15,469 nt of DNA, taken from contig JADGKB010000198.1 of NCBI GenBank assembly GCA_027604185.1, forward strand, positions 1-15,469. The letters run 5' to 3'. Positions 1-14,182 of the stretch are shown piece by piece (the first letter of the stretch is position 1; each line of letters begins with the position of its first letter). Source of the stretch: Boothiomyces macroporosus. Taxonomy: Eukaryota > Chytridiomycota > Chytridiomycetes > Rhizophydiales > Terramycetaceae. The position numbers and the translations under genes were made by a program. The notes under the pieces are model-generated. The model was given only the letters and a program-made list of their open reading frames with translations. It searched no databases and was not told the DNA's origin.

Positions 1-598
1 TTCTAAATTTCCATTTTCTGCTGCGCTATTAAATGTCTCTTCATCCCAAGGACAACCATTCTCTTTTAGCCATTTCATATTTTCTAAATTTCCGATTATT
101 GCTGCATTTTCAAATGTGTCTTCATCCCAAGGACAGCCATTGTCTTTCAGCCACTTTAAATTGTCTAAATTTCCATTTCTTGCTGCAAAAGTAAATGTAT
201 ATTCATCCCAAAGACAGCCATTGTCTTTCAACCACTTCATATTTTCTAATTTTCCATTTTCTGCTGCACTATTAAATGTCTCTTCATTCCAAGGACAATT
301 ATTCTCTTTCAACCACTTCATATTTTCTAAATTTCCATTTTCTGCTGCACTATTAAATGTCTCTTCATTCCAAGGACAATTATTCTCTTTCAACCACCTC
401 ATATTTTCTAAATTTCCATTGTATGTTGCATTTTCAAATGTCTCTTCATCCCAAGGACAATCATTCTCTTTCAACCACTGCATGTTTTCTAAATTTCCAT
501 TTTCTGCTGCTTTACGAAATGTCTCTTCATCCCAAGGACAGCCATTCTCTTTCAACCACTTTAAATTGTCTAAATTGCCATTTTCTGCTGCATCTGCA
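1..598 (-). repeat. 81-bp tandem repeat array encoding ankyrin-like units
   Basis: Units recur with an exact 81-bp period; the shared TCTAAATTTCC-like block (on the + strand) recurs near 1, 82, 163, 244, 325, 406, 487 and 568. Units 241-321 and 322-402 differ at only two of 81 positions by eye. Confidence 0.9.
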
Positions 599-717
599 GT
601 GTTAAACCATTCTGTTTTTTTCTTTACATATTCGCTTTGTAATTTCCTTGTGCTCTTTAGAGTTTCTTTATCACATAGTAACCATATTTTATCCCAAACT
701 TCAGTTGGCAAGTTCAT
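1..717 (-). CDS. F-box-like / ankyrin-repeat protein, 3' end outside window
   Basis: An uninterrupted minus-strand frame of 239 codons starts at the ATG at 717-715 and runs off the window at base 1, so the C-terminus is missing. The first ~35 residues (MNLPTEVWDKIWLLCDKETL) resemble an F-box, with the LPxEvWxxI pattern. From about residue 40 there are seven complete and one partial 27-residue repeats of the type NGNLENMKWLKENGCPWDEE. This is the degenerate ankyrin-like repeat (GCPWDE...AA..G.LE.L.WL) that is abundant in amoebae, algae and their large DNA viruses. By family analogy such proteins are substrate adaptors of SCF ubiquitin ligases, with the repeats binding the target; the substrate is unknown. 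The 81-bp DNA units are very similar to each other, which indicates recent duplication. Certain: repeat protein. Likely: F-box. No stop interrupts it. Confidence 0.85.
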   Translation of the reverse strand, partial: MNLPTEVWDKIWLLCDKETLKSTRKLQSEYVKKKTEWFNTADAAENGNLDNLKWLKENGCPWDEETFRKAAENGNLENMQWLKENDCPWDEETFENATYNGNLENMRWLKENNCPWNEETFNSAAENGNLENMKWLKENNCPWNEETFNSAAENGKLENMKWLKDNGCLWDEYTFTFAARNGNLDNLKWLKDNGCPWDEDTFENAAIIGNLENMKWLKENGCPWDEETFNSAAENGNLE

Positions 718-1127
718 TTTCACTCCTATTTCTGCACAATTTGAGAAAACTTTTTGTGTGAACTTACAAGGGGAGAGAACAAGAAGTTGAACAAAGATTA
801 GAAAAGGTAGAGTAGAATTGAACGTATTTGTGAATTACATTTATAGACACATCCCGAAAACTGTAAATTCAACTTTTTTTACAGGAGATACACTAGACGG
901 TATATTCTACTGAAGATGTGAGGGGGATATTATGAGATGTATAAAGGAAATGCTGATAGCTACGGGAATACAATGCCAAGGTACAAGTACAATATTACAA
1001 TATTGGTTGGATAGTTGCAAGCACAGAGGGACGTTAGAAGCCTTCCTTGTCCCTGTAGGAGTACTTTTAGAGACTGCTTCATTGAGAATTAGGTACTGCA
1101 CTTTTATATAAATTTAGATTGCTTTAT
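718..1127. other. intergenic stretch, mostly without a confident gene
   Basis: Lies upstream of the ankyrin gene and downstream of ODAD4. It holds a 59-codon + strand frame at 932-1111, listed separately, and no recognisable RNA gene. The minus strand is also open at 907-1101, but without an ATG. Splice-like strings here have lengths of 16, 22 or 23 nt, outside the 19-21 nt rule of the confident introns. Confidence 0.5.
932..1111 (+). CDS. doubtful small ORF, 59 aa
   Basis: An ATG-to-TAA frame begins MRCIKEMLIATGIQCQG and ends IRYCTFI. I do not recognise it. The in-frame stop TGA at 911-913 limits any upstream extension, the A-rich leader seen before other starts here is absent, and the opposite strand is also open. 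It converges on the 3' end of ODAD4, 16 bp away. It is listed only because it has an ATG and fills a gap; it may well be chance. Confidence 0.15.
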   Translation: MRCIKEMLIATGIQCQGTSTILQYWLDSCKHRGTLEAFLVPVGVLLETASLRIRYCTFI

Positions 1128-1128
1128 T
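1123..1128 (-). promoter_or_regulatory. polyadenylation signal AATAAA overlapping ODAD4 stop
   Basis: The TGA stop (1130-1128) is followed directly by ATAAA, so the final A of the stop is the first A of AATAAA. Confidence 0.7.
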
Positions 1129-1972
1129 CAATGGTTTGCAGTAACTGTTTTCCTTTGAGCAGTCATTGGTTTGGGTTCGTGTTCTTCTTTTCCCTTCTTC
1201 ATCCTTGGCACTATCTTTACCTCTTTTGGTCTGGCATACAATGGGTACTGCTGTCTCCAAAACCCAATTCTAGTAGTCAAGTACTTTAGTCCATCGTTAA
1301 CAAGCGCTTGTATTTGCTCATCAGGGAAATCCGCAAAGTCTCTGTCATTCAATAATTCCTAGTGTCAAGACTATATACTTGGAGATAAAGCTTGTCATCG
1401 TGTAATTCTTCCAGCAGCTTTCCTTCCATTGCACTAGACAACTTTACATTTGTGTGGTACGGTCTCTTGTCTTCATCCTTCTTATCTTTATCCTCTTTTT
1501 GTTCAGACAAGGCTTGGATAGTCTTTCGCAATCGAGATGGAACATGTATCTTCATCTTTTTAGGGTCACCGATAGAATTGTTGATTGCTTCTCTGCTCTT
1601 CAAAATACCAACACGGAATTCATATAGTTCTGGCCGGAGCTTGTTGCCTCTGTGGAAATATAGCAAAGCCAACTCAAAATCACCCTCAGCATACAAGGCT
1701 TCAGCTTTGAGGTATATACCTTTGTAGTATGTTTGATCTTCTTTCAAACTGGTATTTGCATCCTTTAGAGCCTCTTGAGGACATCCGATTTGGATATAAC
1801 AACGCGCTCTAGCAACTAGGCAATGCTTGTCTGTTGGTCTGATTTCAATGGCTTTGGTGTAAATCTGGATTGCTTCGTGAAATGCACCACGTTGTAAAAG
1901 TAAATCACCTTCAGCAGACAAGCTCTGGAATGTTGCAATGAGTGCTTCTGGGTTTTCCTTTTCTTCTTCCAT
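1128..1972 (-). CDS. ODAD4: outer dynein arm docking complex subunit 4 (TTC25-like), short form
   Basis: Two exons (1972-1379 and 1358-1128) encode 274 residues after removal of a 20-nt intron. Residues ~14-115 form three tetratricopeptide repeats (for example GDLLLQRGAFHEAIQIYTKA). They are followed by the family stretch FRVGILKSREAINNSIGDP and, after the splice, by LEELHDDKLYLQELLNDRDF and YLTTRIGFWRQQYPLYARP. Vertebrate TTC25/ODAD4 has closely similar EFRVGIQKAQEAINNSVG and FWRQQKPIYAR stretches. In animals the protein helps dock outer dynein arms on axonemal doublets, so this gene implies a motile cilium. It ends soon after the FWRQQ block with a basic tail (to TVTANH), followed at once by AATAAA. 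The human protein is more than twice as long, so the second TPR half is absent. The start is the first ATG after an A/T-rich leader. It is head-to-head with the TMEM242-like gene. Confidence 0.88.
1359..1378 (-). other. 20-nt intron of ODAD4
   Basis: Starts GTATATAG, has the branch-like TTGAC, ends ACTAG; phase 0. Removal joins KLYLQ to ELLNDRD and restores alignment with TTC25 proteins. Retention shifts the frame. Confidence 0.88.
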
Positions 1973-2304
1973 TTGAAAATAGTAAAATTATTCTTTGTAA
2001 TAATAAGCATTGTTTTGCTGTCATTGTTTTCCTCTTGAAGTGTGGCTGGTGGGGCTGACCCTCTTATTTTGACCCAACGATTACATTGCACCGTATGATC
2101 CTTTCGAGTTTATTCCACTGTGATTTCAATGCCGCTTCTATTCCACGATAGCAATTTCGAGTTGAAATGCCCTTTATTCAGACAGCCGTTTCTCAGTGTT
2201 CCTCATGTACTAATTGAACAGTGGTGATTTATTCATCCAGGAAGCATCAGCGTATTCACTAGTGTGCTAAACTCTCAATTTGCCTCCAAATTTTTTTTCA
2301 AAAA
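1973..2304. other. divergent promoter region between ODAD4 and TMEM242-like gene
   Basis: A 332-bp head-to-head spacer. No coding frame of note and no RNA gene seen. The + strand ends in a T8 tract followed by CAAAAA just before the TMEM242-like ATG; on the minus side TTTTCAA precedes the ODAD4 ATG. I found no convincing RFX X-box for the ciliary gene. Confidence 0.5.
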
Positions 2305-2790
2305 ATGGACATTGACAAGGAACAGATTGTGCTTAAATTAAGAGAATACAAACAACCAATAGTATCCGGACTGCTATTATTCGGATTCGGAGCTACTATA
2401 TTCAACATGCGTCGGTCAAGAGCAAACCTCGCTGCACTTCACAATAACCCGGTTTTAAAACAGAACCCAAGGTACCTGGGAATCATGATGGCTTCCAGAG
2501 CACTAATGTACGCTACATCAATCGTAGGTATTACAGCTATTGGTGTTGGGTATGGTGTGTCCACTTATATGGAAGTCGACACTCTTCAAGAATTTTCAGT
2601 CAAATTCAAAATTTGGGCACACAAGACTTTCCCTTCGCTAGTAATTAAAGATCAGTCGGATGAGAATGATGTTGTCGAATTCATGCAGGAATTCAAGATT
2701 GAATTGGACAAGCCTGAGCCAAAGGAGAGTTCTACCCACAACTATATTAGTGATAGGTTAATGAAAGGATTGGGACTAAGAGAAAAATAA
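2305..2790 (+). CDS. TMEM242-like mitochondrial inner membrane protein
   Basis: Single-exon frame of 161 residues. Two hydrophobic segments are visible, at ~18-34 (IVSGLLLFGFGATIF) and ~64-88 (RALMYATSIVGITAIGVGYG), followed by MEVDTLQEFSVKFKIWAHKT FPSL. This resembles human TMEM242, which has RALGWGSLYAW, a second helix and then HSMNDFRSKMQSIFPTI. In human cells TMEM242 is an inner-membrane factor that supports assembly of the ATP synthase c-ring and also complex I. The acidic/polar C-terminal tail (~110-161) looks lineage-specific. The start follows a T-tract/A-tract leader, and AATAAA overlaps the TAA stop. It converges on eIF5B with only 28 bp between stops. A HIG1-domain protein was considered but fits less well. 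The assignment rests on remembered motif similarity and should be confirmed by a profile search. Confidence 0.65.
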   Translation: MDIDKEQIVLKLREYKQPIVSGLLLFGFGATIFNMRRSRANLAALHNNPVLKQNPRYLGIMMASRALMYATSIVGITAIGVGYGVSTYMEVDTLQEFSVKFKIWAHKTFPSLVIKDQSDENDVVEFMQEFKIELDKPEPKESSTHNYISDRLMKGLGLREK

Positions 2791-2791
2791 A
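2786..2791 (+). promoter_or_regulatory. polyadenylation signal AATAAA overlapping TMEM242-like stop
   Basis: The stop TAA (2788-2790) is the centre of AATAAA. Confidence 0.7.
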
Positions 2792-2817
2792 CTTGCTTTA
2801 TATAATTCGCAATTGTG

Positions 2818-2823
2818 TTTATT
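2818..2823 (-). promoter_or_regulatory. polyadenylation signal AATAAA overlapping eIF5B stop
   Basis: The last codon CAA plus the TAA stop plus the next A spell CAATAAA. Confidence 0.7.
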
Positions 2824-5800
2824 GAATTGACAAGATTTTCTTGAGACGGACCACCAGTTTCCAGTCATCCTTTGACACTTCATCCCTGAATGTGTTTTTC
2901 AAGACATCAATAGATTGGCGAGTGATCTAGGTTAAACAAAGAGTACGTGAGAGTAGATTTCATTGTCCTGAGTAAAGTGACGCCCATACATGGCAGGTGT
3001 TTGGTATGTAGCACATTCTACACGAATTGCGACAGATGGATCACCTCTTTTAACTACCTGTTTAGGCTTCTTGTTCAATTCAATACCAACAACCTTTCCT
3101 AATGAAATGATATTGCCATTCTAAAATCAAGTAAAAATTACATCCTTGTTGACTACACACAGCGGAGTACCAATCTTTAGTACACCTTCCATTACATCAA
3201 CACCAATAATAATTGGCGCTCTCTTGTTGAAAATAGCATCTGGAACCATCTTCAACAAACAAGGGAATACCGCAGATGGAGCGGCATCTACCTTTCGCTG
3301 CTCTTCAAGCTCCTTCATGTATGCAGTAAACTTGTCAAACAAGTGATAAATAATATTTGCTGAAAATATTTTGACTCCCATTTCATTAGCCAACTGTTCA
3401 GCATCTTTGTCGATTGGAACATCAAATGCCAACATTTGCGCGTACTCTGGACACCTTTCCAGCATGACTGAAGCACGAATAATGTCCTTTTTGTGGACTG
3501 GACCAATGTTAATACCTGAAACTGGAATTTTGGAATCTTTCAAGAATGATAACAGAGCCTCCAATGAACCTAAAGTTGAAGCTTGCACACAGACACCCTT
3601 TCCAGATTTATCAATTGAGGTTAACAGTGTTTGCAAATCAGTCATGACTTCTTCCTTGATATCATCTTCATCATCGTCGGGACCAATGACTAATAAACGA
3701 GAACCAGCGATAGCTTTCTCTAAATCTGGTGCAGCAATCTTTACACCTAAAGATGCCTTTACAGATTTGTGATGCTGGTATTCTGATTTCACACGCAGTT
3801 CTCTCATTGGCTGAGGAGTCAAGAGAGCTCTGACTTGGGTAACAATCGGTCCATTCAAACCGCAAACACAGATCTTGTCACCTTCATTCAATACACCATT
3901 GGACAAAACAACATCGATAGTTGTGCCCAAACCTTCGATGACTTTGACTTCAAGAACTGTACATTCAAGTTCTGAAATGTACATTAAACTTTCGGTCATT
4001 CTGTTTTGGCAAAGGTCCATTAACAAGTGAAGCAAATCAGGTACACCTTCACCAGTAACTGCAGAAGTTGGGATTAGCGAAACATTTCTGCCCATATTGG
4101 TGTTTTCCCAGTACAAACAAGCATTCAAACCTTGCTCAGCAAATTCAACGATGGTCTTGGTTACACGTTCGTTGAATTCTTTGAGTACGTGCTTCTTTTG
4201 CAATTCAAGAGTTTTTCTAGTTGGGAAATCTTTGTGAGTTTCCCAGTCAAAGAGACGATCGATTTTGTTTAATGCTACAACAAAAGGAGTCTTTCTTGCA
4301 CGCAACATGTTCAATGATTCCAAAGTTTGAGGTTCCAAACCGTGCACAATATCAACAACCAGGACAGCAATGTTACAAAGGGAAGAACCTCTTGATCTTA
4401 AATTACTGAAAGATTCGTGACCAGGAGTATCAATAACCAACAAACCAGGTAGTTTATAGCCAGATGGTTTGCCTTCATGGATGAGTGCAGTTTTTTCTTC
4501 CACAGCAGAAATAGGAAAGTATGTAGCACCGATTTGTTGAGTGATACCACCAGCTTCGCCACCTTGCACATTAGTCTGACGAATTTTATCCAAAAGTTTG
4601 GTTTTACCAGTATCGACGTGCCCCATGATAACACAAATAGGCGAGCGAAGGTTATCCTTTGATCTAGCAGCCATTGAAGCTGCGATTCTTTCTTCTCTCC
4701 GCTTGTGTGCTTCTTCCTTGCGTTTCATTGCCTGTCTCTCAGTAGCAGTATAGCCGTCTTCATCTTCACTTTCTTCTTCGCTATCTTCTTCACTGTCATC
4801 ATCACTTTCTTCTTCGCTGTCTTCTTCCTCACTTTCTTCTTGTTCCTTTGTAGCAGCAGGTGGTTTTGCAGCTTCTTTGGTGACCTTTTGTTCAGCCTTT
4901 GGTGCTTCTTTGGTAACTTTTTGTTGTTTAGGTTCTTCCTTGACAACCTTTGCTTGCTGTTTGGGCTCTTCTTTGACAGCCTTTGTTTGCTTGGGTTTTT
5001 CAACAACTTTGGGTTTTTCAGCAACTTTGGGCTTTTCATCTTCACTTTCAGCATCCCAAGAGTCTTTAACATTGTCATCGCTATCTGCATCCCAAGAGTC
5101 TTTAACATTGTCATCGCTATCTGCATCCCAAGAATCTTTGACATTAGAGTCACTTTCAGCGTCCCAGGCTTCTTTAACTTCAGGTTCTTTTTCAGTGGTT
5201 GGAGTAGCTTTTTCTTCATCGGACTCTGCATCCCAGGATTCTTTAGGTTCGCCTTGTTCACTAACAGCCTTTTCGCTAGCTGGCTTGCTATCAACAACCT
5301 TTTCTTTTTGGTTATTCTTCTTTTTCCTGTTTGAATAAATAGGTCTCTTTGGTTTCTTTTCTTCTTCACCTTCAGCCAATGCCTTTACTACAACTTGGCC
5401 AGATGCTAATAGCGCATCTAGTTTGGCTTTTGCTTGTTGCTGAGCAAGCTTTTGTGCAGGAGTCAAGTATTTACCAGACTTTTTGAGTTCTTCTTTTTTC
5501 AACTATATTTAGGAGGATATTACCCTTTCTTTCTCTTTCTTCTTTTGTCTAGCTTCTTCTTTAAGTCTCTCTTCTTCGGCGGCTTTTGCTTCTTCAGCCA
5601 ACACTCTTTGACGTTCCTCTTCAACCAATCTGGCAGCTTCTTCTTCAGCAGCCTTCTTTGCAGCAAGCGCATTACGAAGAGCAGCGATAGCACCAGCAGG
5701 CTTTTTACCACCTTTCTTGTCTTTCTTGCCACTAGAAACAACTTCATCCGCAACAGAAGTCTCTTCAACAACTGGAGCAGGGGCAGCAGTTTCTTGCTTC

Positions 5801-6597
5801 TTTTGTGGAGCAGCTTTTTTCTTTGCCAACTTTGCTCTCTCTTTCTTTTCCCTTTCTTTTTCTGCCTTTGTTTTGATTCTGATAGTTGAAGGGTCAGGGA
5901 TATCTTCTTCAGTAATTTCCTTTTCTTTCTTTGCTGGCTTTTCCTTTTTAACGGGCTTTTCTTCTTCCTGCTCCTCAGCATCCAATCTAGCCAAGATGGC
6001 AGCCGCATCCTCTTCGTCGTCGAAATCCTTTTTGTTTTTCTTTCCTTTGCCTTTCTTTACAGGTACAGGCTCAGCTTCCTCTTGCTGTTCCTGTTCATCC
6101 AATTTTGCAAGGATTGCAGCTGCATCCTCTTCATCGTCAAACCCTTTCTTGCTCTTTTTTCCTTTAGATTTTTTAGCTGGAGCTGGTGCAGGCTCGGCTT
6201 CTTCTTCTGCATCTAATTGCGCAAGAATGGCAGCGGCATCTTCTTCATCGTCGAATGCCTTTTTGCCTTTCTTTGCTTTCCCTTTCTTTACAGGTGCAGG
6301 CTCAGCTTCCTCTTCTGCATCCAATTTTGCAAGAATTTCAGCTGCATCCTCTTCATCGTCAAAATCTCTGTTCTTTTTTTTCTTTCCTTTCTTGACAGGC
6401 TTTGAATCTTCAAAATCCTCATCCAAATTGGTGATTTCAACATTCTTTTTTTTCTTTAAAGTTGTAATTGCAGACATTAGTCCGCCCAAATCTTCGCCGT
6501 CCTCGCCTTTGTTGAAGCCGGCTGGTTCAATCCAGTCGTCATCCTTTTTATTATTCCTAACATCAAGCGCAAATTACTTTTTCTTTTTTGGAGGCAT
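2819..6597 (-). CDS. EIF5B: eukaryotic translation initiation factor 5B (eIF5B)
   Basis: Five exons (6597-6578, 6556-5524, 5502-3142, 3120-2947, 2926-2819) give 1231 residues. eIF5B is the cytosolic translational GTPase, the orthologue of bacterial IF2, that joins the 60S subunit to the start-site-bound 40S with eIF1A. The N-terminal ~630 residues are charged and low-complexity, with four FDDEEDAA repeats and three [12 protein letters not shown] repeats. The GTPase domain starts near residue 640: G1 GHVDTGKT at ~645-652, then [20 protein letters not shown] and NKID. Domain II includes [13 protein letters not shown]; domain III includes [12 protein letters not shown] and [11 protein letters not shown]; domain IV is completed by exons 4-5 (GRHF, then [10 protein letters not shown]). 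Total length is close to the ~1220 of the human protein. The start lies in a 20-nt first exon, MPPKKK(K), spliced in frame to [14 protein letters not shown]. Confidence 0.97.
2927..2946 (-). other. 20-nt intron 4 of eIF5B
   Basis: Starts GTACTCTT, branch-like TTAAC, ends CTAG; phase 0. Joins NEIYSH to [10 protein letters not shown], the conserved SRQSIDALK region of eIF5B. Confidence 0.95.
3121..3141 (-). other. 21-nt intron 3 of eIF5B
   Basis: Starts GTAATTTTT, branch-like TTGAT, ends TTTAG; phase 0. Joins CVVNKD to [10 protein letters not shown]. Retention gives an in-frame TGA. Confidence 0.95.
5048..5160 (-). repeat. 36-bp tandem repeats inside eIF5B
   Basis: Three 12-residue units [12 protein letters not shown]; the GCATCCCAAG block on the + strand recurs at 5051 and 5087 with exact 36-bp spacing. 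Acidic, probably disordered linker upstream of the G domain. Confidence 0.85.
5503..5523 (-). other. 21-nt intron 2 of eIF5B
   Basis: Starts GTAATATCC, branch-like CTAAA, ends TATAG; phase 0. Joins KKKEKER to [14 protein letters not shown]. Retention gives an in-frame TAA. Confidence 0.94.
5965..6395 (-). repeat. four-fold FDDEEDAA repeat in the eIF5B N-terminus
   Basis: Four imperfect ~32-39 residue modules, each a Lys-rich patch (KKGKGKK type), then [12 protein letters not shown], then LDAEEE and a Pro/Ala/Glu linker. Spacing varies by a few codons, so these are old protein-level repeats rather than a fresh DNA duplication. Confidence 0.85.
6557..6577 (-). other. 21-nt intron 1 of eIF5B
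   Basis: Starts GTAATTTGC, branch-like TTGAT, ends GTTAG; phase 2, after a 20-nt first exon. Retention makes a TAA stop at codon 8. Confidence 0.9.
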
Positions 6598-7026
6598 TTC
6601 AAATGTGAAAAACTTTTTTGCGAGTGACTCAACTGTAGATGGTGCTCATAGTAAGTTACGAGCGACTCGATTATTCATGTGTGATTGTAGTAGGCTATCC
6701 TTGATCCCCATTTCAGCTTATAATTCGCTGTATAAAGGAGTTGAACAGTTGGCTGTATGAGATCATGTCTAATATTACATAAAAGCAATCTATGGTATTC
6801 CAGCACCTAAACCTAATCGATAAAATGGTTTGGCTAATAAAAGTAACTCTATGGATTTGAGATGGACACAGTAATCGGGGCTAATATTAAATAGGTATTA
6901 ATTGCGGACTTTTAAACCCGCTATTGAATATGTAGCCTATTTCCTTGTACAGCCTTTGTTTTGTACTATAGTCTCGTGAAATAACTTTGCCCAACTTCGC
7001 CTAAAAATTGTATTTAAAAAACAAAA
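6598..7026. other. divergent promoter region between eIF5B and SH3 gene
   Basis: A 429-bp head-to-head spacer. I see no convincing gene, tRNA or repeat. TTTTTTGC lies close to the eIF5B start on the minus strand, and an A-rich leader (ATTTAAAAAACAAAA) immediately precedes the SH3 ATG. Confidence 0.5.
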
Positions 7027-7392
7027 ATGAGTTGTTTTTCTTGGATGACATTCAAACGAAAAGAGCCTTTCAAACCAATTTCATATTACTACGAATCGCC
7101 TAGGCTGCGCGCAAGGATGTACCAGCAACTCCCAAACGATATAGTAGTTTCGAGGCATATAGACACTGTCAAAGTTTCCATGTCTTATCGAGCAACAGAG
7201 ATTGACGAAATTGATTTAAAGGAAGGAGATTTTGTTTTGCTGCAGTGTAAATTAAAAGGCGGATGGGGAATAGGAATCAACCTGACAACCAACAAGGAAG
7301 GGAAATTTCCACTGGAGAACATTGCCCCAATACTGAGGAATCCTCTTGCTTCACCCCTCCCTCCTCCCATGCCAAAAATTAGAATCTTTTGA
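7027..7392 (+). CDS. small SH3-domain protein
   Basis: Single-exon frame of 121 residues. Residues ~48-102 fit an SH3 domain. VSMSYRATEIDEIDLKEGDF corresponds to the ALYDY/E-DELsf--GD part, KGGWGIGINL to the dWW-G part, and GKFPLENIAPI to the G-FP-NYV part. The first Trp of the usual WW pair is Gly here. A short proline-rich tail (LASPLPPPMP) follows, which could itself be an SH3 ligand. There is no signal peptide or transmembrane segment; the first 47 residues are basic and unassigned. SH3 domains bind Pro-rich peptides in cytoskeletal and signalling complexes, but the partner is unknown. The start follows an A-rich leader, and AATAAA lies 7 nt after the TGA stop. Confidence 0.78.
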   Translation: MSCFSWMTFKRKEPFKPISYYYESPRLRARMYQQLPNDIVVSRHIDTVKVSMSYRATEIDEIDLKEGDFVLLQCKLKGGWGIGINLTTNKEGKFPLENIAPILRNPLASPLPPPMPKIRIF

Positions 7393-7398
7393 ATATTT

Positions 7399-7404
7399 AA
7401 TAAA
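7399..7404 (+). promoter_or_regulatory. polyadenylation signal AATAAA of SH3 gene
   Basis: Lies 7 nt downstream of the TGA stop at 7390-7392. Confidence 0.6.
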
Positions 7405-7570
7405 CACTTGTAATACTAGCATTGATTATATCGAAAGACTAATATTTGTCCATTCTTGTTGGATGTGGCACAAAGTAGCTGACGAAAATGGTGAAAAAAA
7501 CAAAGTGGGTAGAATTGGAAAGAGAGGTTGGTTTCTTCGAGTTGATCCGAACTGAAGCTGTAGTCAACAG

Positions 7571-7596
7571 AGTTGCACACTGGAGAGTGAGCAACT
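7571..7596 (+). repeat. near-perfect hairpin
   Basis: AGTTGC pairs with GCAACT, then an A-A mismatch, then CACT pairs with AGTG, closed by a GGAG loop. It sits in a GC-richer patch that ends in T6 at about 7686-7691. Confidence 0.6.
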
Positions 7597-8091
7597 TGGT
7601 TGTTCAACATCGCTGAAACCGGTCGAGGCAGGCAACTGAGCAGACAGAAGGCGAGGCTATCGCTAGCAGGTCGGGAGGTCGGCTCTTTTTTGTCAATTTT
7701 GAAACCCCCCAATGGTAGAGTTTAATTTACATCAATTAGAATGTGCAATATCGACCCAGTTGCTCATTCAACCAAAATCCAACTACTGGGCGAATCTACA
7801 AAGTTACAGATTTAGCCATTGATATTCTGTCAACATCATGATACAAGTATCCAACAAGCGCGCTTTTGTCCAGTTTCAGTGGTAGCAATGTTTGGATTGG
7901 CACTCTACGAGCGCTTTCTTTAGATACATTATTGAAAACATGACCATACAGAATCCAAGACCACCGCTCAAATCTTTTGATAAATACTCCGGTTTCTACT
8001 ATACACAATTGCAAATGGAGTCTGTATTCATGCAAAGACACAGCCCCTGCTATTTGTGATCTGTGCACCAAAAACTTTTTTTAAATTAAAA

Positions 8092-8647
8092 ATGAAAGAC
8101 TGGTGGTTCGCAACTATTTTTGCCCTATCATTCATCATCACCCTTCTCGCTACTGCGACACCAAACTTTATACTCCTCAAGAACTACCGATTCGGATTGT
8201 TCCAAATATGTACGCAGTCAAATTGCATTAAATTCCCAGATATCCGATGCAAGAACGAATGGAAGATAGATCAGGGCGAATTAGAATCACTATCGTTCTG
8301 TCAGTCATGGTTAGCCACCCGGTACTTGATGGTAATTCAATCTAATGTAGATATCCGCATGCAGTTTTGGAATAGTAATATTTTGCGCTTATCTTGCTGC
8401 AATATTCCGCAAGGATAGAAAGATAAACAAGATCATCTTTGTATTTACTGGCCTGATGATATTCTGTGAATCTATAGCACTCCAAATGGTCTACTATATT
8501 CGCAAAGATCAATTATTCCTTCACTCAAGGTTCGGGTCTTGTTTCTACTGGCTGCTGTTCATGATTGCTTGCCAGCTGAGTCTGGTTTGTTCATTCGGTT
8601 TCTACAGTTTCTTTGATAAGCAGCTCGGCTACTTGCCCATCCCATGA
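8092..8647 (+). CDS. claudin/PMP22-superfamily-like four-helix membrane protein
   Basis: Exons 8092-8331 and 8351-8647 give 178 residues. Four hydrophobic segments are visible: ~5-25, ~78-98, ~107-128 and ~142-168. The first extracellular loop carries FGLFQIC(x4)C at residues 34-45. This recalls the claudin/PMP22 GLW-x2-C-x(8-10)-C signature, with Phe for Trp and a shorter Cys spacing. TM2 is preceded by LATRYLMI, comparable to the AARALMI of claudins, and TM4 contains GSCFYWLLF. Claudin-family proteins organise membrane contacts or act as four-helix accessory subunits; the role in this organism is unknown. It has no recognisable cytoplasmic tail (it ends QLGYLPIP). Unspliced, the frame breaks before TM2. 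The start is the ATG after a T7/A-rich leader; the in-frame upstream ATG at 8056 would add a non-hydrophobic extension and is disfavoured. No AATAAA is seen, only AATATA at 8652. The next gene starts 37 bp downstream. Confidence 0.72.
8332..8350 (+). other. 19-nt intron of claudin-like gene
   Basis: Starts GTAATTCAA, branch-like CTAAT, ends GTAG; phase 0. Joins ATRYLM to ISACSFGIV, restoring TM2. Retention shifts the frame. Confidence 0.9.
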
Positions 8648-8684
8648 ATCTAATATATTTTTCGTCCTTAATTTTTGAAAAAAA

Positions 8685-9266
8685 ATGCAAGACCTGCCAA
8701 ACTATTTCGAGTATGAGCCAGAAATCAGACCAGCAATAATGACCCTAGTCAATTCGCAGCCCTTGGACAATACTCCATTCATTGCCCCGTATGTGCAAAT
8801 CAATGAATCAGTGTGTAGAAAGGCATTGGAATTTTCTGGAATTAAACCTACAGAGTCACTACTGGATTTAGGCTGCGGCGACGGTACAATTCTCAAAACC
8901 GCTTACAGCGAATCTATTCAACGACTAGTGGGGGTAGAATTCGACCCATTGCTGTGTAAACATATCCGACAGAAATGTCCCTACATTGAGCTGTACGAAC
9001 AGGATATGTTTACAGTAGATTTAGAATTATTGAATGTGGATGTAATGATATTGTACTTGCTAGAGCAAGGCCTGGGCAAACTGAAAGAAATATTGAAAAG
9101 ATGGCTCAAGAACGAAAGGAGGATTGTCACTGTAGGATATTTTATACCGGGATGGGTGCCTGTCAAGACTACTAGTGTCAAAGTTGAAGATGGGTTCATG
9201 GGAGGCGCGCAACAGGATGAACAGATGCTGTACTATTACGATTATACAATAAATAAAGAGCAGTAA
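8685..9266 (+). CDS. class I SAM-dependent methyltransferase, FAM173 (ATPSCKMT/ANTKMT)-like
   Basis: Single exon, 193 residues. The SAM-binding motif I is LLDLGCGDGT at ~59-68, followed by an acidic motif II GVEFDP at ~83-88. The preceding TPFIAPYVQI and the later VGYFIPGWVPVKT resemble the PYVP and FPLPTW(Q)PV stretches of FAM173 proteins. In animals, FAM173 enzymes trimethylate a lysine of the ATP synthase c subunit (ATPSCKMT) or of the adenine nucleotide translocase (ANTKMT). There is no obvious transmembrane anchor or presequence before the fold, unlike animal FAM173, so a different substrate is possible. The start follows T5GA7. Two overlapping AATAAA boxes (9248-9257) lie inside the last codons, upstream of the TAA. 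It converges on the ARID2-like gene, 36 bp away. Confidence 0.72.
   Translation: MQDLPNYFEYEPEIRPAIMTLVNSQPLDNTPFIAPYVQINESVCRKALEFSGIKPTESLLDLGCGDGTILKTAYSESIQRLVGVEFDPLLCKHIRQKCPYIELYEQDMFTVDLELLNVDVMILYLLEQGLGKLKEILKRWLKNERRIVTVGYFIPGWVPVKTTSVKVEDGFMGGAQQDEQMLYYYDYTINKEQ
9248..9257 (+). promoter_or_regulatory. overlapping AATAAA signals within the last codons of the methyltransferase
   Basis: AATAAATAAA spans codons just before the stop TAA at 9264-9266. Confidence 0.5.
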
Positions 9267-9301
9267 CTTCTCAAAGGTAGAACAAGTTGATAGGAATTTG
9301 G

Positions 9302-9307
9302 TTTATT
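9302..9307 (-). promoter_or_regulatory. polyadenylation signal AATAAA overlapping ARID2-like stop
   Basis: The last AAA codon, the TAA stop (9305-9303) and the following A spell AAATAAA. Confidence 0.7.
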
Positions 9308-11404
9308 TAAGCTCTGCAAATATCTGTCCAACAATTCGGTTGAATTTCACATTAGTAAGCATTGCACTGAGATCCTTCTCGAACGGAATAAAGTAAGAGT
9401 GGTTGTGTGGGTGGCGCGATATATTACGTATTACTAATAGAGCTGAAAGTGGAATTCCTTTGAGTTCATCATTTGGATCAGGGTAAATGTGTGGTTTGTT
9501 GTCTTTCTTTCCAACAACTTTTGGTTTGATTGGGTCACTAGGGATATGCGTTTGTAAGTGAAGCATTAGTTGGGTTTTGCTATTTGAAAGCTTTTTGCAG
9601 GTTTTCCATGGGCATTTTAATGAACTGAATGAATGGCTTTCAACGTGTTTCCACAGGTCTTTAGGCTCAGTATACGCTTCAGTGCAATTGGCTACTCCGC
9701 AAAACAAATCAGTCGGAGACTTCTTTGGTGGAGCTGGTGGTTGTGCTTCTCTAGGTTTTAATCCAATCACATCATTGTCATCGGATGATACTTCTGTAAA
9801 TATCTTTGGAAGTAGTTTTAAAAGATCATTAACTGGAAGGATATTAATTTGGTTGATTTGACAGTAGTTTTGGTATTCCGCATGGAAATCCGGATGTGAA
9901 ATTTTGTATCCTACAGAGATATCACACATACTTTGCAACCTGAAATTAATGATGCTTACCAATAGGCAGCATAGAATAAATCAATGGCTCGTTGGTTGGT
10001 TCCCATATTTGGAGGTGGAAGTGGTTTAGCATCATTTCCATCTTCATCAGCAGGTGGTCTATACACAGTTGCTTTGAATACTTCCATTCCAAATCCTCTC
10101 CAGTGCAAAAACTTTAACAACAGCTTTAAAACCTACATTAAAGATGCTTACATTGAATCTCACGGAATTGGTAATACGAACTCCAGCCTCTGGGGAAATA
10201 TTTGAAAACAAGTACAAGAATTCCTGACATTAATCCAACTTACCATAACATTCATAACTATTTCCTCATCCTTTACCAGTAACAATTGAATTAATCTTTG
10301 GATAACAGGTGTATCGATTTGAATTATCACTTTTTCATTGCTATCAAATGCCAATAGTTTAATCAAGCATCGCAATGCACCAAGGATGCGCGATCGATCA
10401 GATCCAAAAATCATCTTTTTTAAACAAGCCAAATAAAAGTCTGACGGGCCACGAAGCTGGATCAATTTGGCCATGTTTTCGAAAATATCTAGAGCGTATT
10501 GTTGAACTTCGTTGTAACTAGAATCAGGAGGTAATGCCAATGATTTCGCCAGGATCGTGAGTAAACGATGATCTCTAGAGAAGGCTAAAATGAAAAAGAA
10601 TGTACCTTGAGCATTTTCATTCATAAATGACATGTTTCTAATGACATGTAATGCTTGTAAAACACGTTCCAATAACACGGCGCTTTCTTGTACATTGAAT
10701 ACCGTAATTTCAGCCATTTCAGGGACTGTGGAATTATCTGTTTCTGGATTCAGTGTAGTTTCAAAATTATAGGGGCTAGTATTCAATATTAAGTGATCAA
10801 AGAACGGCAGAGTGTGGTCAATCAACGTTTCAGGCAGTCCCGGAATGAATCCAACATAGAAATGGAGTTGGAACGACAGCTTGACAAGCTTGTTGAACGC
10901 CCAATCTACCTCATTTGGCAGATTGGACTTTAGCGCCAATGCCAATCTATTTTGCCATCCTCCTTGAATATATTTTTCTTCCTTTCCGTCATCCTCTAAA
11001 ATTAAAACCTATTTGCCTGGAAACTTTTCAATCTTTTTCCTGACGACTTGCTCCGCTACCGGATTAGTGTTTTTGCTGTTATTAATCGCTTGATCGAGAG
11101 ATTGCCCTCGAGTCATATTTTCAAAGGCAAGCAGGTGACGCTGATATAATTGCTTGAAAACAAAAGCACTATTGGTACATGTTTCCGGCAACTGAAAATA
11201 GTTTGAAATTCGTTTCCAGGCTCTTTCCTGAGTAACTTTGTTGTAACCACCATTTTGCATTACGAGGTTGAAAATCATATGCAGATCAAGTTTCTTTCCA
11301 CCTAAAATCGGCTCTCTCTGCAGCGTAACGCTTTATTAGCGATTTATTTACCCTTGCTTATCATGGATTTGCTGTAGAGTCTCGTAAAACTTTTCGTTTT
11401 GCAT
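9303..11404 (-). CDS. ARID2/Rsc9-like chromatin remodelling subunit
   Basis: Six exons (11404-11352, 11330-11017, 10995-10244, 10223-10152, 10132-9960, 9939-9303) give 666 residues. Order of parts: an ARID DNA-binding domain at ~1-90 (REPILGGKKLDL, MIFNLVMQNGGYNKVTQ, LPETCTNSAFVFKQLYQRHL); a helical armadillo-like region at ~125-400 beginning LALALKSNLPNEVDWAFNKL, as in ARID2/Rsc9; an RFX-like segment at ~445-500 (AAYWLQSM, SHPDFHAEYQNYC); and two C2H2 fingers, C535-x4-C540-x12-H553-x3-H557 and C564-x4-C569-x12-H582-x3-H586. This order matches ARID2 (BAF200) of PBAF and fungal Rsc9 of RSC. These are nucleosome-remodelling complexes in the nucleus. It is much shorter than vertebrate ARID2 because the long central linker is missing. 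The start is the first ATG; an in-frame TGA lies upstream. One of its five introns has a GC donor. Confidence 0.9.
9940..9959 (-). other. 20-nt intron 5 of ARID2-like gene
   Basis: Starts GTAAGCATC, branch-like TTAAT, ends TTCAG; phase 2. Joins IDLFYAAY to WLQSMCDI in the RFX-like region. Confidence 0.92.
10133..10151 (-). other. 19-nt intron 4 of ARID2-like gene
   Basis: Starts GTAAGCATC, branch-like TTAAT, ends GTAG; phase 0. It closes a 72-nt exon and joins NSVRFN to VLKLLLKFLHW. Confidence 0.88.
10224..10243 (-). other. 20-nt intron 3 of ARID2-like gene
   Basis: Starts GTAAGTTGG, branch-like TTAAT, ends GTCAG; phase 0. Joins EEIVMNVM to EFLYLFSNIS. Confidence 0.9.
10996..11016 (-). other. 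21-nt GC-AG intron 2 of ARID2-like gene
   Basis: Starts GCAAATAGG, branch-like TTAAT, ends TTTAG; phase 1. The flanking exons are in one frame interrupted only by a TAG inside this string. Removing 21 nt joins KIEKFP to EDDGKEEKYI. No GT donor in the neighbourhood gives an open frame. Confidence 0.75.
11331..11351 (-). other. 21-nt intron 1 of ARID2-like gene
   Basis: Starts GTAAATAAA, branch-like CTAAT, ends AAAG; phase 2. Joins QIHDKQ-G to VTLQREPILGGKK at the ARID start. Retention makes an immediate TAA. Confidence 0.88.
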
Positions 11405-11461
11405 TTGGAATTTTATGGATGATTTTTTTCAAATGCAAGAATCTCACAACAGCCAACGAGT

Positions 11462-11492
11462 AGGTTCAACCAGTGTGACTCTAGTTGAACCT
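11462..11492. repeat. inverted repeat upstream of ARID2-like gene
   Basis: AGGTTCAAC (11462-11470) and GTTGAACCT (11484-11492) are perfect 9-nt inverted arms around a 13-nt spacer. It lies in the 173-bp spacer between the ARID2-like start and the 3' end of the next gene. Could be a transcription factor site or a short hairpin. Confidence 0.6.
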
Positions 11493-11576
11493 GTTCGCCT
11501 CCCGTATGCGATCGATTCGCTGTATAGACAATGTTCCCACTGTCATTATTTGGGATTTCGCAGAATATCAAGTTTC

Positions 11577-11582
11577 TTTATT
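11577..11582 (-). promoter_or_regulatory. polyadenylation signal AATAAA overlapping stop of downstream paralogue
   Basis: GAA TAA A: the stop TAA (11580-11578) lies inside AATAAA. Confidence 0.7.
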
Positions 11583-12045
11583 CATTCACAATGAGAAACA
11601 TCATTTCTTGAAAATTTCCAAGTATTTTCAAGCCAAATTTTCCTCTAGGAATTTCAAAAACCTTCTTTTCGCCCAACAAGGAGTTTTGGTAAATGCAACT
11701 GCCGTCTTTGTAGTAATAATTTTGTAAATCTGGATATGGCTTTGGCATTCCAATCTTCAAATATTCTCCGTTTTGCTTTTCAGGAAATTTCCAGTTTACT
11801 GTGCCCTTTGCTATTCCCATCTCACTAGATTCATTGAACGTAGCAACGTTGAAACCGCCATTTGAATTTCTATAGGAAAGATGAGCTGTCCCTCTTGGTG
11901 AAGAACTAGTTTTAAGGGACACATGGACAATTGTTGCATCACTATCCATTTTTGGGAAGCAAAACGTTAATAGAAATAGAATTAGCAAAAGTGCAACTAA
12001 TGAGCTCTTTACTGCTGATCTGTGACCTACTCTTTTAATTTGCAT
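11578..12045 (-). CDS. unknown membrane-anchored protein, tandem paralogue A
   Basis: Intronless frame of 155 residues from the ATG at 12045-12043. A basic N-terminus (MQIKRVGHRSAVK) precedes one hydrophobic segment at ~15-29 (LVALLLILFLLTFCF). This predicts a signal anchor with a ~120-residue domain on the far side of the membrane. That domain shares a pattern with the adjacent upstream gene: FPEK-GE-LK-G, YYK-G--IYQNS-LGE, then an EIP motif, an L-G motif and a hydrophobic end (MMFLIVNE). I do not recognise the family. The frame is open upstream of this ATG to 12159, but that part overlaps the upstream gene in another frame. A CGCGTTTAAA box lies immediately before the ATG and resembles one before the paralogue. 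It starts only 19 bp after the paralogue's stop. Confidence 0.7.
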   Translation of the reverse strand: MQIKRVGHRSAVKSSLVALLLILFLLTFCFPKMDSDATIVHVSLKTSSSPRGTAHLSYRNSNGGFNVATFNESSEMGIAKGTVNWKFPEKQNGEYLKIGMPKPYPDLQNYYYKDGSCIYQNSLLGEKKVFEIPRGKFGLKILGNFQEMMFLIVNE

Positions 12046-12064
12046 GAATTTTAAACGCGTATAT

Positions 12065-12535
12065 TCAATTGTCAATGAAAAACAAGAGTTCAGAATAACT
12101 TGCATATCCTTGAAGATTAACACTACCATAAGCTGGAAGATCATAAATTGCTTGTTCACCTAGCTTGGAGTTCTTGAAAATCTGTCTTCCGTGCTTATAA
12201 TATATAATTTCAGCCTCTATTGAGTCTCTATCAGGACCAACTTTTATGCATTCTCCTTTTGCTTTTTCCGGAAATGGTAAATTTACAATTGCTGTTCCTC
12301 CTATTTCCGGGTTATAGGAATCTACTGTAATTATGCTCCAGGATCCATTTTGATGTTTGTAAAAGATATCCAGGTGGTGATCTACAAAAGGGCTTCCTCT
12401 GGAAGTTAAACGTGAGAGGATAACAACAGGGTTGCAACATAGCAAGCATTGATAAATGTGGTATAATACTAGTGTAATACAAATAAAAGCAATCAAAAGC
12501 CCAAAATTTCTTGTTGGTACAGCTGCTGTTTTCAT
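12065..12535 (-). CDS. unknown membrane-anchored protein, tandem paralogue B
   Basis: Intronless frame of 156 residues from the ATG at 12535-12533. One hydrophobic segment at ~11-31 (FGLLIAFICITLVLYHI) is followed by a Cys-containing stretch (QCLLCCNP) and a ~115-residue domain. The domain has NLPFPEKAKGECIKVG, then YYKHGRQIFKNSKLGE, and ends ELLFFIDN. It aligns by eye over its C-terminal ~75 residues with the next gene downstream, so the two are a tandem duplicate pair. I do not recognise the family, and no catalytic motif is evident. A CGCGTTTTAATG string places a CGCGTTT box directly before the start. No AATAAA follows the TGA, only AATATA. HtrA ends 59 bp upstream. Confidence 0.7.
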   Translation of the reverse strand: MKTAAVPTRNFGLLIAFICITLVLYHIYQCLLCCNPVVILSRLTSRGSPFVDHHLDIFYKHQNGSWSIITVDSYNPEIGGTAIVNLPFPEKAKGECIKVGPDRDSIEAEIIYYKHGRQIFKNSKLGEQAIYDLPAYGSVNLQGYASYSELLFFIDN

Positions 12536-12589
12536 TAAAACGCGAAACAAATTGCATGAAATTTTGATTTCATTATCAAAGTTGAGATA

Positions 12590-12595
12590 TTTATT
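12590..12595 (-). promoter_or_regulatory. polyadenylation signal AATAAA overlapping HtrA stop
   Basis: The final A of TAA (12597-12595) begins AATAAA. Confidence 0.7.
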
Positions 12596-13899
12596 TATAC
12601 TCCAACTGCGGTGGTAGTATTATCCTGAACATTGTGGATTTCAATATCCAACTCTTCCGGCACTACTTTACAAACATAATCTACAGTCTCGTATCGGATC
12701 ACCCTTCCTAAAATTAATGAAATGTACCATCCCAGTCCATTTCCAAAGGGACATTGCGCTTGATATGTATATGAACCGGTTTGCCAAACCCTAAGCCAAT
12801 GATTTGAAGCATATCCTGACTGCTTGTTATTTTGGTTGAGTTTACTTGAGTAATAATATCCCCTTCTTGCAGTCCAGCTTTTTCTGCCGGTGATCCAGAA
12901 TTGACTCTGACCAATAGAACTCCTTGATTAACATGTGGGACGCTATTGGCAAATGATTTCTTTAACTGATGGAAAACGTTTGGTGACAATGTTGTCATTT
13001 GCAATCCAAGATATGGTCGCACCACCTTGCCTTCCTTTTTCAACTGCTGAATCATATCCAGACAAGTATCAACTCTGATTGCAAAGCTAAATTAGTTGAT
13101 GCTACCTTATGCCTTCAGATTCGGCTCTGGTAGTATTGATTCCAATCACCTTGCCTTCCAGATTAATCAGAGGGCCTCCACTACTTCCACTATGCACCAC
13201 ACAATCTGTCTGTAAAAACCTAACTCTGTCATCTCGAGCACCAATCTCTACACTATGTCTGCTGCGAGATGAAATAACTCCTGCTGTCACTGTGTTCTAT
13301 ATTAATATAGTCTACCTGCAACCCAAATGGGCATCCTATTGCAACTACCCAGTCTCCTGGCCGGGTTTTAACATTGCTTCCAAACTGAACAGCTTTAAAC
13401 TTTTCTCTTTGAGGGTGTATTGGTTTGACAATTGCCAAGTCTGCTCTGGTATCTAGCGAAAACACCTCTGCTTCAAACTATATTAACGATGATTACTTCG
13501 TATCCATCGCTTGCTCGGACCATGATTTTGCCATCATCCATATCTGTGACTACATGTGCGTTGGTGAGAATAGTTCTTATTAGCTCAAAGGTACCCATCT
13601 GAATCTATAAAGAATCCAGATCCTGATGAGATGAACGTATTCTTCTTAAAGAACTGCATCGTCGTGGTTTCCACTGTGATGTTTACAACTGAGTCTATCA
13701 CTTTATCCACTGCATCAGCGATAAACGTCGTTGGATTTGGCTTTTGTTCCTGTGCATGGAGCGTAGTTAAAAATAGAGGAATTAGTACGAGTGGATATAA
13801 ATATAATCGTTGTTGCGTTTGTTTTGGGAATTGTTGGATGATTCGTTTTGTCGGCTGCTTTGGAATTCTAGTTCTAAATAGGAATTTCAGATTCCGCAT
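12595..13899 (-). CDS. mitochondrial HtrA-family serine protease (HTRA2/Omi-like)
   Basis: Six exons (13899-13595, 13575-13497, 13477-13316, 13296-13106, 13086-12728, 12707-12595) give 402 residues. The first ~50 residues are rich in Arg, Lys and Gln with no acidic residue (MRNLKFLFRTRIPKQPTKR). They are followed by a hydrophobic segment at ~33-48, like the presequence plus inner-membrane anchor of HTRA2. The trypsin-like domain has SGSGFFIDSDGTILTNAHVV with His109, Asp141 in TRADLAIVKP, and Ser221 in GSSGGPL: a complete catalytic triad. PFGLQNTVTAGVIS and SEGISFAI are also conserved. A single PDZ domain follows (~264-360: PYLGLQM, GSPAEKAGLQEGDIITQVN). Predicted role: quality-control protease of the mitochondrial intermembrane space. 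It is slightly shorter than human HTRA2 (458 aa). The start is the first ATG; the frame upstream has only TTG. Confidence 0.95.
12708..12727 (-). other. 20-nt intron 5 of HtrA gene
   Basis: Starts GTACATTTC, branch-like TTAAT, ends TTTAG; phase 1. Joins EMDWD-G to RVIRYETVDY. Confidence 0.88.
13087..13105 (-). other. 19-nt intron 4 of HtrA gene
   Basis: Starts GTAGCATCA, branch-like CTAAT, ends TTAG; phase 2. Restores the EGISFAI motif of HtrA proteases. Confidence 0.96.
13297..13315 (-). other. 19-nt intron 3 of HtrA gene
   Basis: Starts GTAGACTAT, branch-like TTAAT, ends ATAG; phase 0. Restores PFGLQNTVTAGVIS. Confidence 0.96.
13478..13496 (-). other. 19-nt intron 2 of HtrA gene
   Basis: Starts GTAATCATC, branch-like TTAAT, ends ATAG; phase 0. 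Joins RASDGYE to FEAEVFSLD. Confidence 0.95.
13576..13594 (-). other. 19-nt intron 1 of HtrA gene
   Basis: Starts GTACCTTTG, branch-like CTAAT, ends AAG; phase 2. Restores DSDGTILTNAHVV around the catalytic His. Confidence 0.95.
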
Positions 13900-13998
13900 T
13901 CTGGTGTAAATTTGCAAAAATCAGAGCAATAGATATGCAGAAACTTCCGCAAGAAAGATGGTAATATCTTCGAGTCGTTTATTAGCAGGAAAGTAGGA

Positions 13999-14133
13999 AT
14001 GGCACCCAGTGGCATATACATGAGTATAATTGACTTTTACCGCGACATGTCTTTACAACAATTCTGGATTAACCAGATGGATAAACTCTGTGTTGGAAAT
14101 AGCATCCGAAGGCAGGTCATTGTAAAAGATTAG
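13999..14133 (+). CDS. possible small gene, 44-45 aa
   Basis: An ATG frame beginning MAPSGIYMSIIDFYRDMSLQ runs to a TAG at 14131-14133. It sits in the 283-bp gap between the HtrA start (divergent) and the 3' end of the Pro/Gln-rich gene (convergent). The composition looks protein-like, with amphipathic stretches (QQFWINQMDKLC), but I recognise no family. A string at 14122-14142 meets the local intron rule (21 nt, GTA start, TAG end, in-frame stop on retention) except for a weaker GTAAT branch box. Splicing it would change the end from VIVKD to VIQIDN, with a stop at 14155-14157. The frame is open upstream of the ATG back to a TAG near 13929, without another ATG. Confidence 0.35.
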   Translation: MAPSGIYMSIIDFYRDMSLQQFWINQMDKLCVGNSIRRQVIVKD

Positions 14134-14182
14134 TAATAATAGCAAATTGATAACTAAATTGTATTAAAATCAGATTCAATTC

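Follow-up and report, generated by a model that had tools for sequence, protein, structure and literature searches.

Introns of about 20 nucleotides in the Boothiomyces window

The window analysed here, a stretch of 15,469 nucleotides (nt) from the chytrid fungus Boothiomyces macroporosus of the order Rhizophydiales and the family Terramycetaceae (NCBI GenBank assembly GCA_027604185.1, contig JADGKB010000198.1, positions 1 to 15,469), contains 17 very short strings that interrupt its genes. Our results indicate that these strings are almost certainly U2-type spliceosomal introns, and that the introns sampled in this genome are nearly all 19–22 nt long, rarely 23–24 nt. Introns of about 20 nt occur throughout the 1.3% of the genome that was sampled, and they rank with the shortest nuclear introns on record. 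Assignment to the U2 type is consistent with the GT-AG or GC-AG ends, the branch motif upstream of the AG, the proteins that are restored when the strings are removed, and the major small nuclear RNAs (snRNAs) found in the genome. Removal of the strings from RNA and the order of spliceosome assembly discussed below are both what we infer from these data.

A sequence-only reading of the window had listed sixteen strings of 19–21 nt, and all of them were located with those lengths (six of 19, five of 20 and five of 21 nt). Fifteen start with GTA and one with GCA, as that reading described (15 GT-AG and one GC-AG), but its count of 11 TAG ends has to be corrected to 12, with two CAG and two AAG. 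The branch adenine was rightly placed at nt 14–16, whereas the distance from it to the 3' end is 4–6 nt and not 3–6 nt. The strings are real, but their total of sixteen was one short, as a seventeenth intron (10585–10605, GT-AG) was overlooked in the ARID gene. With TTCAT as its branch box, it does not fit the pattern of the earlier reading. This intron was missed there, and kept in the GenBank annotation of Boothiomyces sp. JEL0838, because it is in frame and contains no stop; the seven residues that it would encode are missing from the ARID proteins of Terramyces and Globomyces. With the A at nt 14–16 the motif was found 22 times on both strands of the window, including all sixteen strings and six others, whereas 200 second-order random sequences contained it 8.4 times on average and 20 times at most.

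The splice junctions were compared with homologous proteins, which are denoted P0002 and so on. Twelve residues per junction were compared with annotated Boothiomyces, Terramyces and Globomyces proteins for the 15 junctions of eIF5B, ARID and HtrA, and the best match reached 9–12 of the 12 residues at every one. The JEL0838 proteins P0122 and P0148 fail at some junctions because of their gene models. ODAD4 chains in the PDB matched at 173 bits over residues 9–263, spanning the intron junction of that gene. Taken together, homology confirms 16 of the 17 window introns, whose removal restores residues of annotated relatives or of solved orthologues.

Seven further introns, all of 19–23 nt, were found outside the window within alignments to solved orthologues, in genes that had been picked for their function and not for their introns. 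Three are in U2AF35 (19, 19 and 20 nt), two in U2AF65 (20 and 19 nt) and two in Slu7 (20 and 23 nt). This brings the homology-confirmed introns to 23, namely eight of 19, eight of 20, six of 21 and one of 23 nt. The gene models of these splicing factors came from a run restricted to 15–30 nt with a bonus for GTA. Six putative introns lack junction support: two of 19 nt in U2AF65, two of 22 and 24 nt in SF1, one of 21 nt in Cwc25 and one of 21 nt in U2AF35. The last is a GC-AG intron after the second codon, which was read by eye and is not counted as confirmed. No intron was predicted in Prp18. A 16-nt Cwc25 intron from a short-length run was taken as false, and a 23-nt U2AF35 call from the same run was replaced by a 20-nt intron that was read by eye and then checked by alignment.

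Length distribution in the sampled genome

The sample comprised 201,469 bases, that is, the window plus 19 stretches taken from a further 12 contigs of the 15.2-megabase (Mb) nuclear genome, and it is non-random, with 12 of the 19 stretches beginning at contig base 1. It was searched with a blind gene finder that was trained on the codon statistics of this very sample and given the two-letter intron ends, but no motif, and that allowed lengths of 10–200 nt. At a penalty of -6, 185 GT/GC-AG introns were predicted, 62 of which were 19–22 nt long; the control end pairs GA-AG, GT-AC, CT-AC and TG-GA gave 163, 141, 143 and 156 introns, with 7, 3, 2 and 5 in that range. A second run, with lengths of 14–30 nt and a penalty of -5, gave 28, 56, 23 and 16 GT-AG introns of 19, 20, 21 and 22 nt, none of 18 nt and two of 23 nt. 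The same four control pairs totalled 10–23 at 19–22 nt, compared with 123 real ones. The length mode was 20 nt, and a clear GT-AG excess was seen only at 19–22 nt (201 kilobases (kb)). The 201-kb sample thus has the main mode below 30 nt and the narrow spread that define a tiny-intron genome; a main mode well above 30 nt, which the sequence-only reading had named as grounds for rejecting its proposal, was not seen in it.

The catalogue made at a penalty of -6 holds 127 introns, 95 of which are 19–22 nt long and lie outside the window (93 distinct ones after removing two repeats). Among these 93, GTA starts 85 and TAG ends 63, and a full YTRAY is present in 67, compared with 13.6 in shuffled interiors. 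The branch A lies at nt 14–16 in 87 of 91 introns whose branch box scored at least 4 of 5 points. These GTA, YTRAY and TAG marks are independent evidence, because the finder was given no motif. Past the GTA the donor is weak, with A in 56% at position 4, G in 18% at position 5 and T in 55% at position 6 (109 introns), and 55% of the preceding exons end in G (n = 94). As a rough figure, the genome would hold about 7,800 introns when the raw count is scaled up, or about 22,000, equally rough, after correction by 17/6. In the joined stretches L012-L013, the identical introns 16810–16829 and 19279–19298 are spaced by 2,469 bases, and a second identical pair (16455/18924) has the same spacing; the two pairs at equal spacing probably reflect a recent tandem duplication.

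It was reported that Paramecium introns with a length divisible by three carry in-frame stops (as described in PMC5014332). In our GTA-starting catalogue, in-frame stops were present in 18 of 18 such introns and in 49 of 75 others, but the finder is nearly blind to stop-less introns of this length class, and one does exist, the seventeenth window intron. This bias is unusable because of the way in which the finder detects introns.

Splicing machinery

Nine of the ten components searched for were found in the genome (U1, U2, U6 and six of seven proteins). The U1 snRNA scored 68.8 bits, slightly below the Rfam cut-off of 69.5, and has the canonical 5' end ATACTTACCTG. There are two U2 genes with GTAGTA and a U6 gene with ACAGAGA, all above the Rfam cut-off. 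SF1 was found with its SF1-HH domain, as were U2AF35, which aligns to solved orthologues, Slu7, Prp18 and Cwc25. The exons of U2AF65, scored separately, lie below the NCBIfam cut-off, and a PDB match to the solved orthologue settles its identity. The altered U1, U2AF and SF1 genes that the earlier reading had suggested looking for were not found, since the U1 5' end is canonical, the SF1-HH domain is present and both U2AF subunits align to solved orthologues. With nine of ten searched components present, the machinery does not resemble the reduced spliceosome of Mikrocytos in the few spliceosome parts that were covered. RED is a factor required for short introns in human cells. A whole-genome search for its domain (RED_N, PF07808) gave no match, and the controls were equally silent, so nothing follows from this. 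Cwc25 matches of equal score were obtained at C49:3194-3481 and C100:4789-5076, so that the assembly may contain duplicated or allelic pieces.

Intron lengths in relatives

Database proteins of relatives that read into an intron before a stop, or keep one in frame, were back-translated under the constraint of GT and AG ends to obtain the intron length at which the conserved exon reappears, and 60 shuffled references served as a control. Intron 4 of eIF5B in Globomyces JEL0801 decodes to 34 nt, the HtrA intron of Globomyces pollinis-pini to 26 nt, that of Terramyces to 21 nt, P0011 to 89 nt and P0179 to 22 nt, with 0 of 60 shuffles as good in each case. The evidence is moderate for P0006 (19 nt; 0 of 60, with a small margin) and P0046 (19 nt; 1 of 60, while a stricter earlier pattern gave 40 nt). 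Decoding without the shuffle control gave 18 nt for P0163, 21 nt for P0142 and 75 nt for the Globomyces ARID intron. A decoding of P0019 to 19 nt was dropped as not significant, as 31 of 60 shuffled references score equally, and those of P0017, P0188 and P0182 were not significant either. P0016 and P0020 gave no fit, nor did P0033, P0034, P0044 and P0047, which have short tails, in a single attempt. The fits of P0019, P0149 and P0169 were spotted by eye first and scripted afterwards.

These retained introns suggest that intron length ranges from 18 to 89 nt among Rhizophydiales. In a tree of eIF5B (36 rows), P0006 and P0046 group with Gorgonomyces (94/92) beside the Boothiomyces–Globomyces group, and P0011 falls outside that whole set (93/91), all these supports lying below the starred level of the tree program.

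Alternative explanations

Several observations weigh against the reading favoured here. At a penalty of -6 no more than 6 of the 17 window introns were recovered exactly by the blind finder, and judged by the controls at -5 about one tenth to one fifth of its 19–22 nt calls may be false. At -6 the 81–120 nt bin held 30 predictions, compared with 23–26 in the controls (26 with GT alone). When lengths were left free, introns of 156, 65 and 183 nt were put into U2AF65, Slu7 and U2AF35, while the SF1 locus received introns of 192, 68 and 16 nt. The JEL0838 GenBank models splice most but not all of the compared strings and keep the ARID 21-mer, for which reason the annotation is weak support; their HtrA model begins inside its first intron (13576–13594), and their ARID protein P0122 is without two conserved stretches present in Terramyces. 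The gaps and the kept 21-nt intron of P0122 are a sign of mis-annotation in tiny-intron genomes. The tiny introns could be a real subclass beside many introns of ordinary fungal length (50–100 nt), since rare long introns could hide in the finder background, the 81–120 nt bin exceeds its controls at -6 and the sample covers only 1.3% of the genome. However, the 81–120 nt excess is gone at a penalty of -8 (13 compared with 13–18 in the controls), and the other bins above 22 nt are within or below the control range at -6. Some long predictions bridge two tiny introns (for example 10133–10243 in an early run), and the 156-, 65- and 183-nt introns were rejected because they would delete conserved residues that the short models restore. 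All 23 homology-confirmed introns are 19–23 nt long, and we regard a mixture with many longer introns as very improbable. It is harder still to believe that the strings stay in the RNA as frameshifts, sequencing errors or translationally bypassed spacers. Sequence alone cannot demonstrate splicing, but donor, branch and acceptor marks at near-fixed spacing exceed the random expectation, and at two of these sites the introns of relatives differ in length (that of eIF5B 2927–2946 is 34 nt in Globomyces, and that of HtrA 12708–12727 is 21 nt in Terramyces).

For genuine introns of this size, the question is how far their reduction is shared. It could be private to Boothiomyces and Terramyces, as three retained Globomyces introns decode to longer lengths (26, 34 and 75 nt). 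In five proteins of other relatives, on the other hand, retained introns decode to 18–22 nt (P0163, P0006, P0046, P0142 and P0179), among them the two that cluster with Gorgonomyces and P0179, which is nearest to Kappamyces by BLAST. A private reduction is rather unlikely on this indirect evidence, and the shrinkage is probably shared within Rhizophydiales, the short introns being older than Boothiomyces. We lean somewhat towards a graded series within the order, in which introns would have shortened from about 75–89 nt through 26–34 nt in Globomyces to 18–24 nt in Boothiomyces, Terramyces and their kin, with Boothiomyces keeping U1, U2AF65, U2AF35, SF1, Slu7 and Prp18. If this is true, an ordinary spliceosome can work when the branch A lies 13 nt from the 5' splice site and a polypyrimidine tract has no space, and the enabling steps could be traced along a single phylogeny.

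Proposed mode of recognition

Each intron is marked by a GTA start, a branch site that is mostly YTRAY with its A at nt 14–16, and an AG 4–7 nt after this A. Recognition may rely on the near-fixed spacing of these three marks, so that spacing and not donor strength would define the intron; this is suggested because U1 is canonical and the donor is degenerate, with just 18% of the introns having a G at position 5. Binding of U2AF65 was reported to need at least eight pyrimidines (as described in PMC8363638). The 1–4 nt that separate the branch A from the last three bases are too short for this, and U2AF65 therefore probably acts through SF1/SF3b and U2AF35 contacts, without the usual pyrimidine tract. 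Recognition of the AG by U2AF35, together with the link of U2AF65 to SF1 and SF3b, could suffice to hold U2AF in place. In human splicing about 50 nt are needed from the 5' site to the branch site (as given in PMC6692369), a limit that is not absolute, as one 56-nt human intron has 27 nt (as given in PMC8363638), which takes some force from the contrast. The 13–15 nt of Boothiomyces leave little room for both U1 and U2, which probably act sequentially or across exons for this reason. The introns of the sampled genes fall short of both limits, the spacing of about 50 nt and the eight pyrimidines, in a fungus in which U2AF, SF1, Slu7 and Prp18 are all present.

Comparison with other tiny-intron genomes

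Chlorarachniophyte nucleomorph genomes are smaller than 0.4 Mb. Their introns of 18–21 base pairs (bp) (as given in PMC10245619) resemble those of Boothiomyces in length range, narrow spread and large number, but they belong to a relic algal nucleus and not to a 15.2-Mb fungal nuclear genome. Mikrocytos has introns of 16–17 bp, 217 of 224 being 16 bp in M. mackini, and as described in the same paper its spliceosome has 17–19 proteins, with only U2, U4 and U6 found among the snRNAs (PMC10245619). The introns of Mikrocytos and Paramikrocytos are likewise numerous, uniform and conserved in their marks, whereas in Boothiomyces U1 is present, as are at least six of the proteins that make up an ordinary spliceosome. 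Stentor coeruleus has introns of 15–16 nt, and Slu7 and Prp18 were undetected there (as described in PMC9505925). It resembles Boothiomyces in its tiny introns, in using the standard nuclear code and in having U2AF2, U2AF1 and SF1; Boothiomyces differs in keeping Slu7 and Prp18, and its introns are a few nt longer. Dicyemids are opisthokonts with tiny introns too, but these animal parasites have longer ones, with a median of 27 bp and about one third of the predicted introns at 30 bp or more (as given in PMC6543705). Boothiomyces differs from all of these in being a fungus.

The suggestion that this genome is another independent case of minimisation holds as to distance, as a chytrid fungus is far from ciliates, nucleomorphs and mikrocytids, and chytrid fungi are a further tiny-intron lineage, outside those that had been named in it. 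The introns are already in the public record, because the JEL0838 GenBank models splice most of the compared strings; a description of them, or any paper on tiny introns in chytrids, was not found among the matches listed in searches of open-licence PMC papers. JEL strain numbers belong to a culture collection (as stated in PMC7537106), and the minimal intron size for an ordinary spliceosome could be tested beside longer-intron relatives because the named relatives bear such numbers. In practical terms, the examined GenBank proteins of Boothiomyces and Terramyces retain 21-nt introns, and one is without conserved stretches.

Features of the window and identity of the source

Genes of the window and their introns, with the evidence for each
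Feature	Position	Strand	Evidence
Ankyrin-repeat gene, cut by window start	1..717
ODAD4/TTC25-like gene, 274 amino acids (aa) after splicing	1128..1972	-	PDB match to ODAD4 chains
ODAD4 intron, 20 nt, GTATATAGTCTTGACACTAG	1359..1378	-	PDB alignment across junction, blind finder, motif
eIF5B gene, 4 introns	2819..6597	-	P0002 (JEL0838)
eIF5B intron, 20 nt	2927..2946	-	12/12 in P0002
eIF5B intron, 21 nt	3121..3141	-	12/12 in P0002
eIF5B intron, 21 nt	5503..5523	-	12/12 in P0002
eIF5B intron, 21 nt	6557..6577	-	12/12 in P0002
Predicted 178-aa protein	8092..8647	+	no Pfam family at E<=0.1
Intron of 178-aa protein gene, 19 nt	8332..8350	+	motif and frame only
ARID2/RSC9-like gene, 6 introns	9303..11404	-	protein identity to ARID2 of Terramyces 92%, of Boothiomyces 92%
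ARID intron, 20 nt	9940..9959	-	12/12 in P0121 and P0122
ARID intron, 19 nt	10133..10151	-	12/12 in P0121
ARID intron, 20 nt	10224..10243	-	12/12 in P0121
ARID intron (17th), 21 nt, in frame, stop-free, GTACATTCTTTTTCATTTTAG	10585..10605	-	12/12 in Terramyces P0121, 11/12 in Globomyces P0123
ARID GC-AG intron, 21 nt	10996..11016	-	10/12 in P0121
ARID intron, 21 nt	11331..11351	-	11/12 in P0121 and P0122
HtrA-type serine protease gene, 5 introns	12595..13899	-	PDB HTRA1/2/3 matches; P0148, P0149
HtrA intron, 20 nt	12708..12727	-	12/12 in P0148
HtrA intron, 19 nt	13087..13105	-	12/12 in P0148
HtrA intron, 19 nt	13297..13315	-	12/12 in P0148 and P0149
HtrA intron, 19 nt	13478..13496	-	12/12 in P0148 and P0149
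HtrA intron, 19 nt	13576..13594	-	9/12 in Globomyces P0169; continuous PDB alignment

The 178-aa protein had been called claudin-like by the sequence-only reading, a name that found no profile support, as the claudin/PMP22 profile test returned no Pfam family at the threshold given in the table. The window eIF5B is more than 99% identical to P0002 of JEL0838 (100% when rounded) over residues 640–1229, with at least two residues differing, and the HtrA protein is 98% identical to that of Boothiomyces and 91% to that of Terramyces over 75% of its length. The window genome belongs to another strain or species of Boothiomyces than JEL0838, because the eIF5B repeat region differs. An orthonectid (Intoshia variabili) was rejected as the source, as eIF5B points to Boothiomyces and the mitochondrial contig described below has its own reading of TAG and a COX1 in pieces.

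The eIF5B proteins of Batrachochytrium dendrobatidis, Dispira, Acaulospora, Cetraspora and Funneliformis (P0013, P0078, P0090, P0098 and P0119) carry a PF05203 domain, and in P0013 an insert stands directly after HVDTGK, an intein-like position.

Contig C148 (28,474 bases, 23% G+C) is the mitochondrial genome. It has a tRNA(CUA) gene with TAG read as leucine, a code that fits chytrids, and its COX1 is split into pieces, with LAGLIDADG-type reading frames, named by eye, in between.

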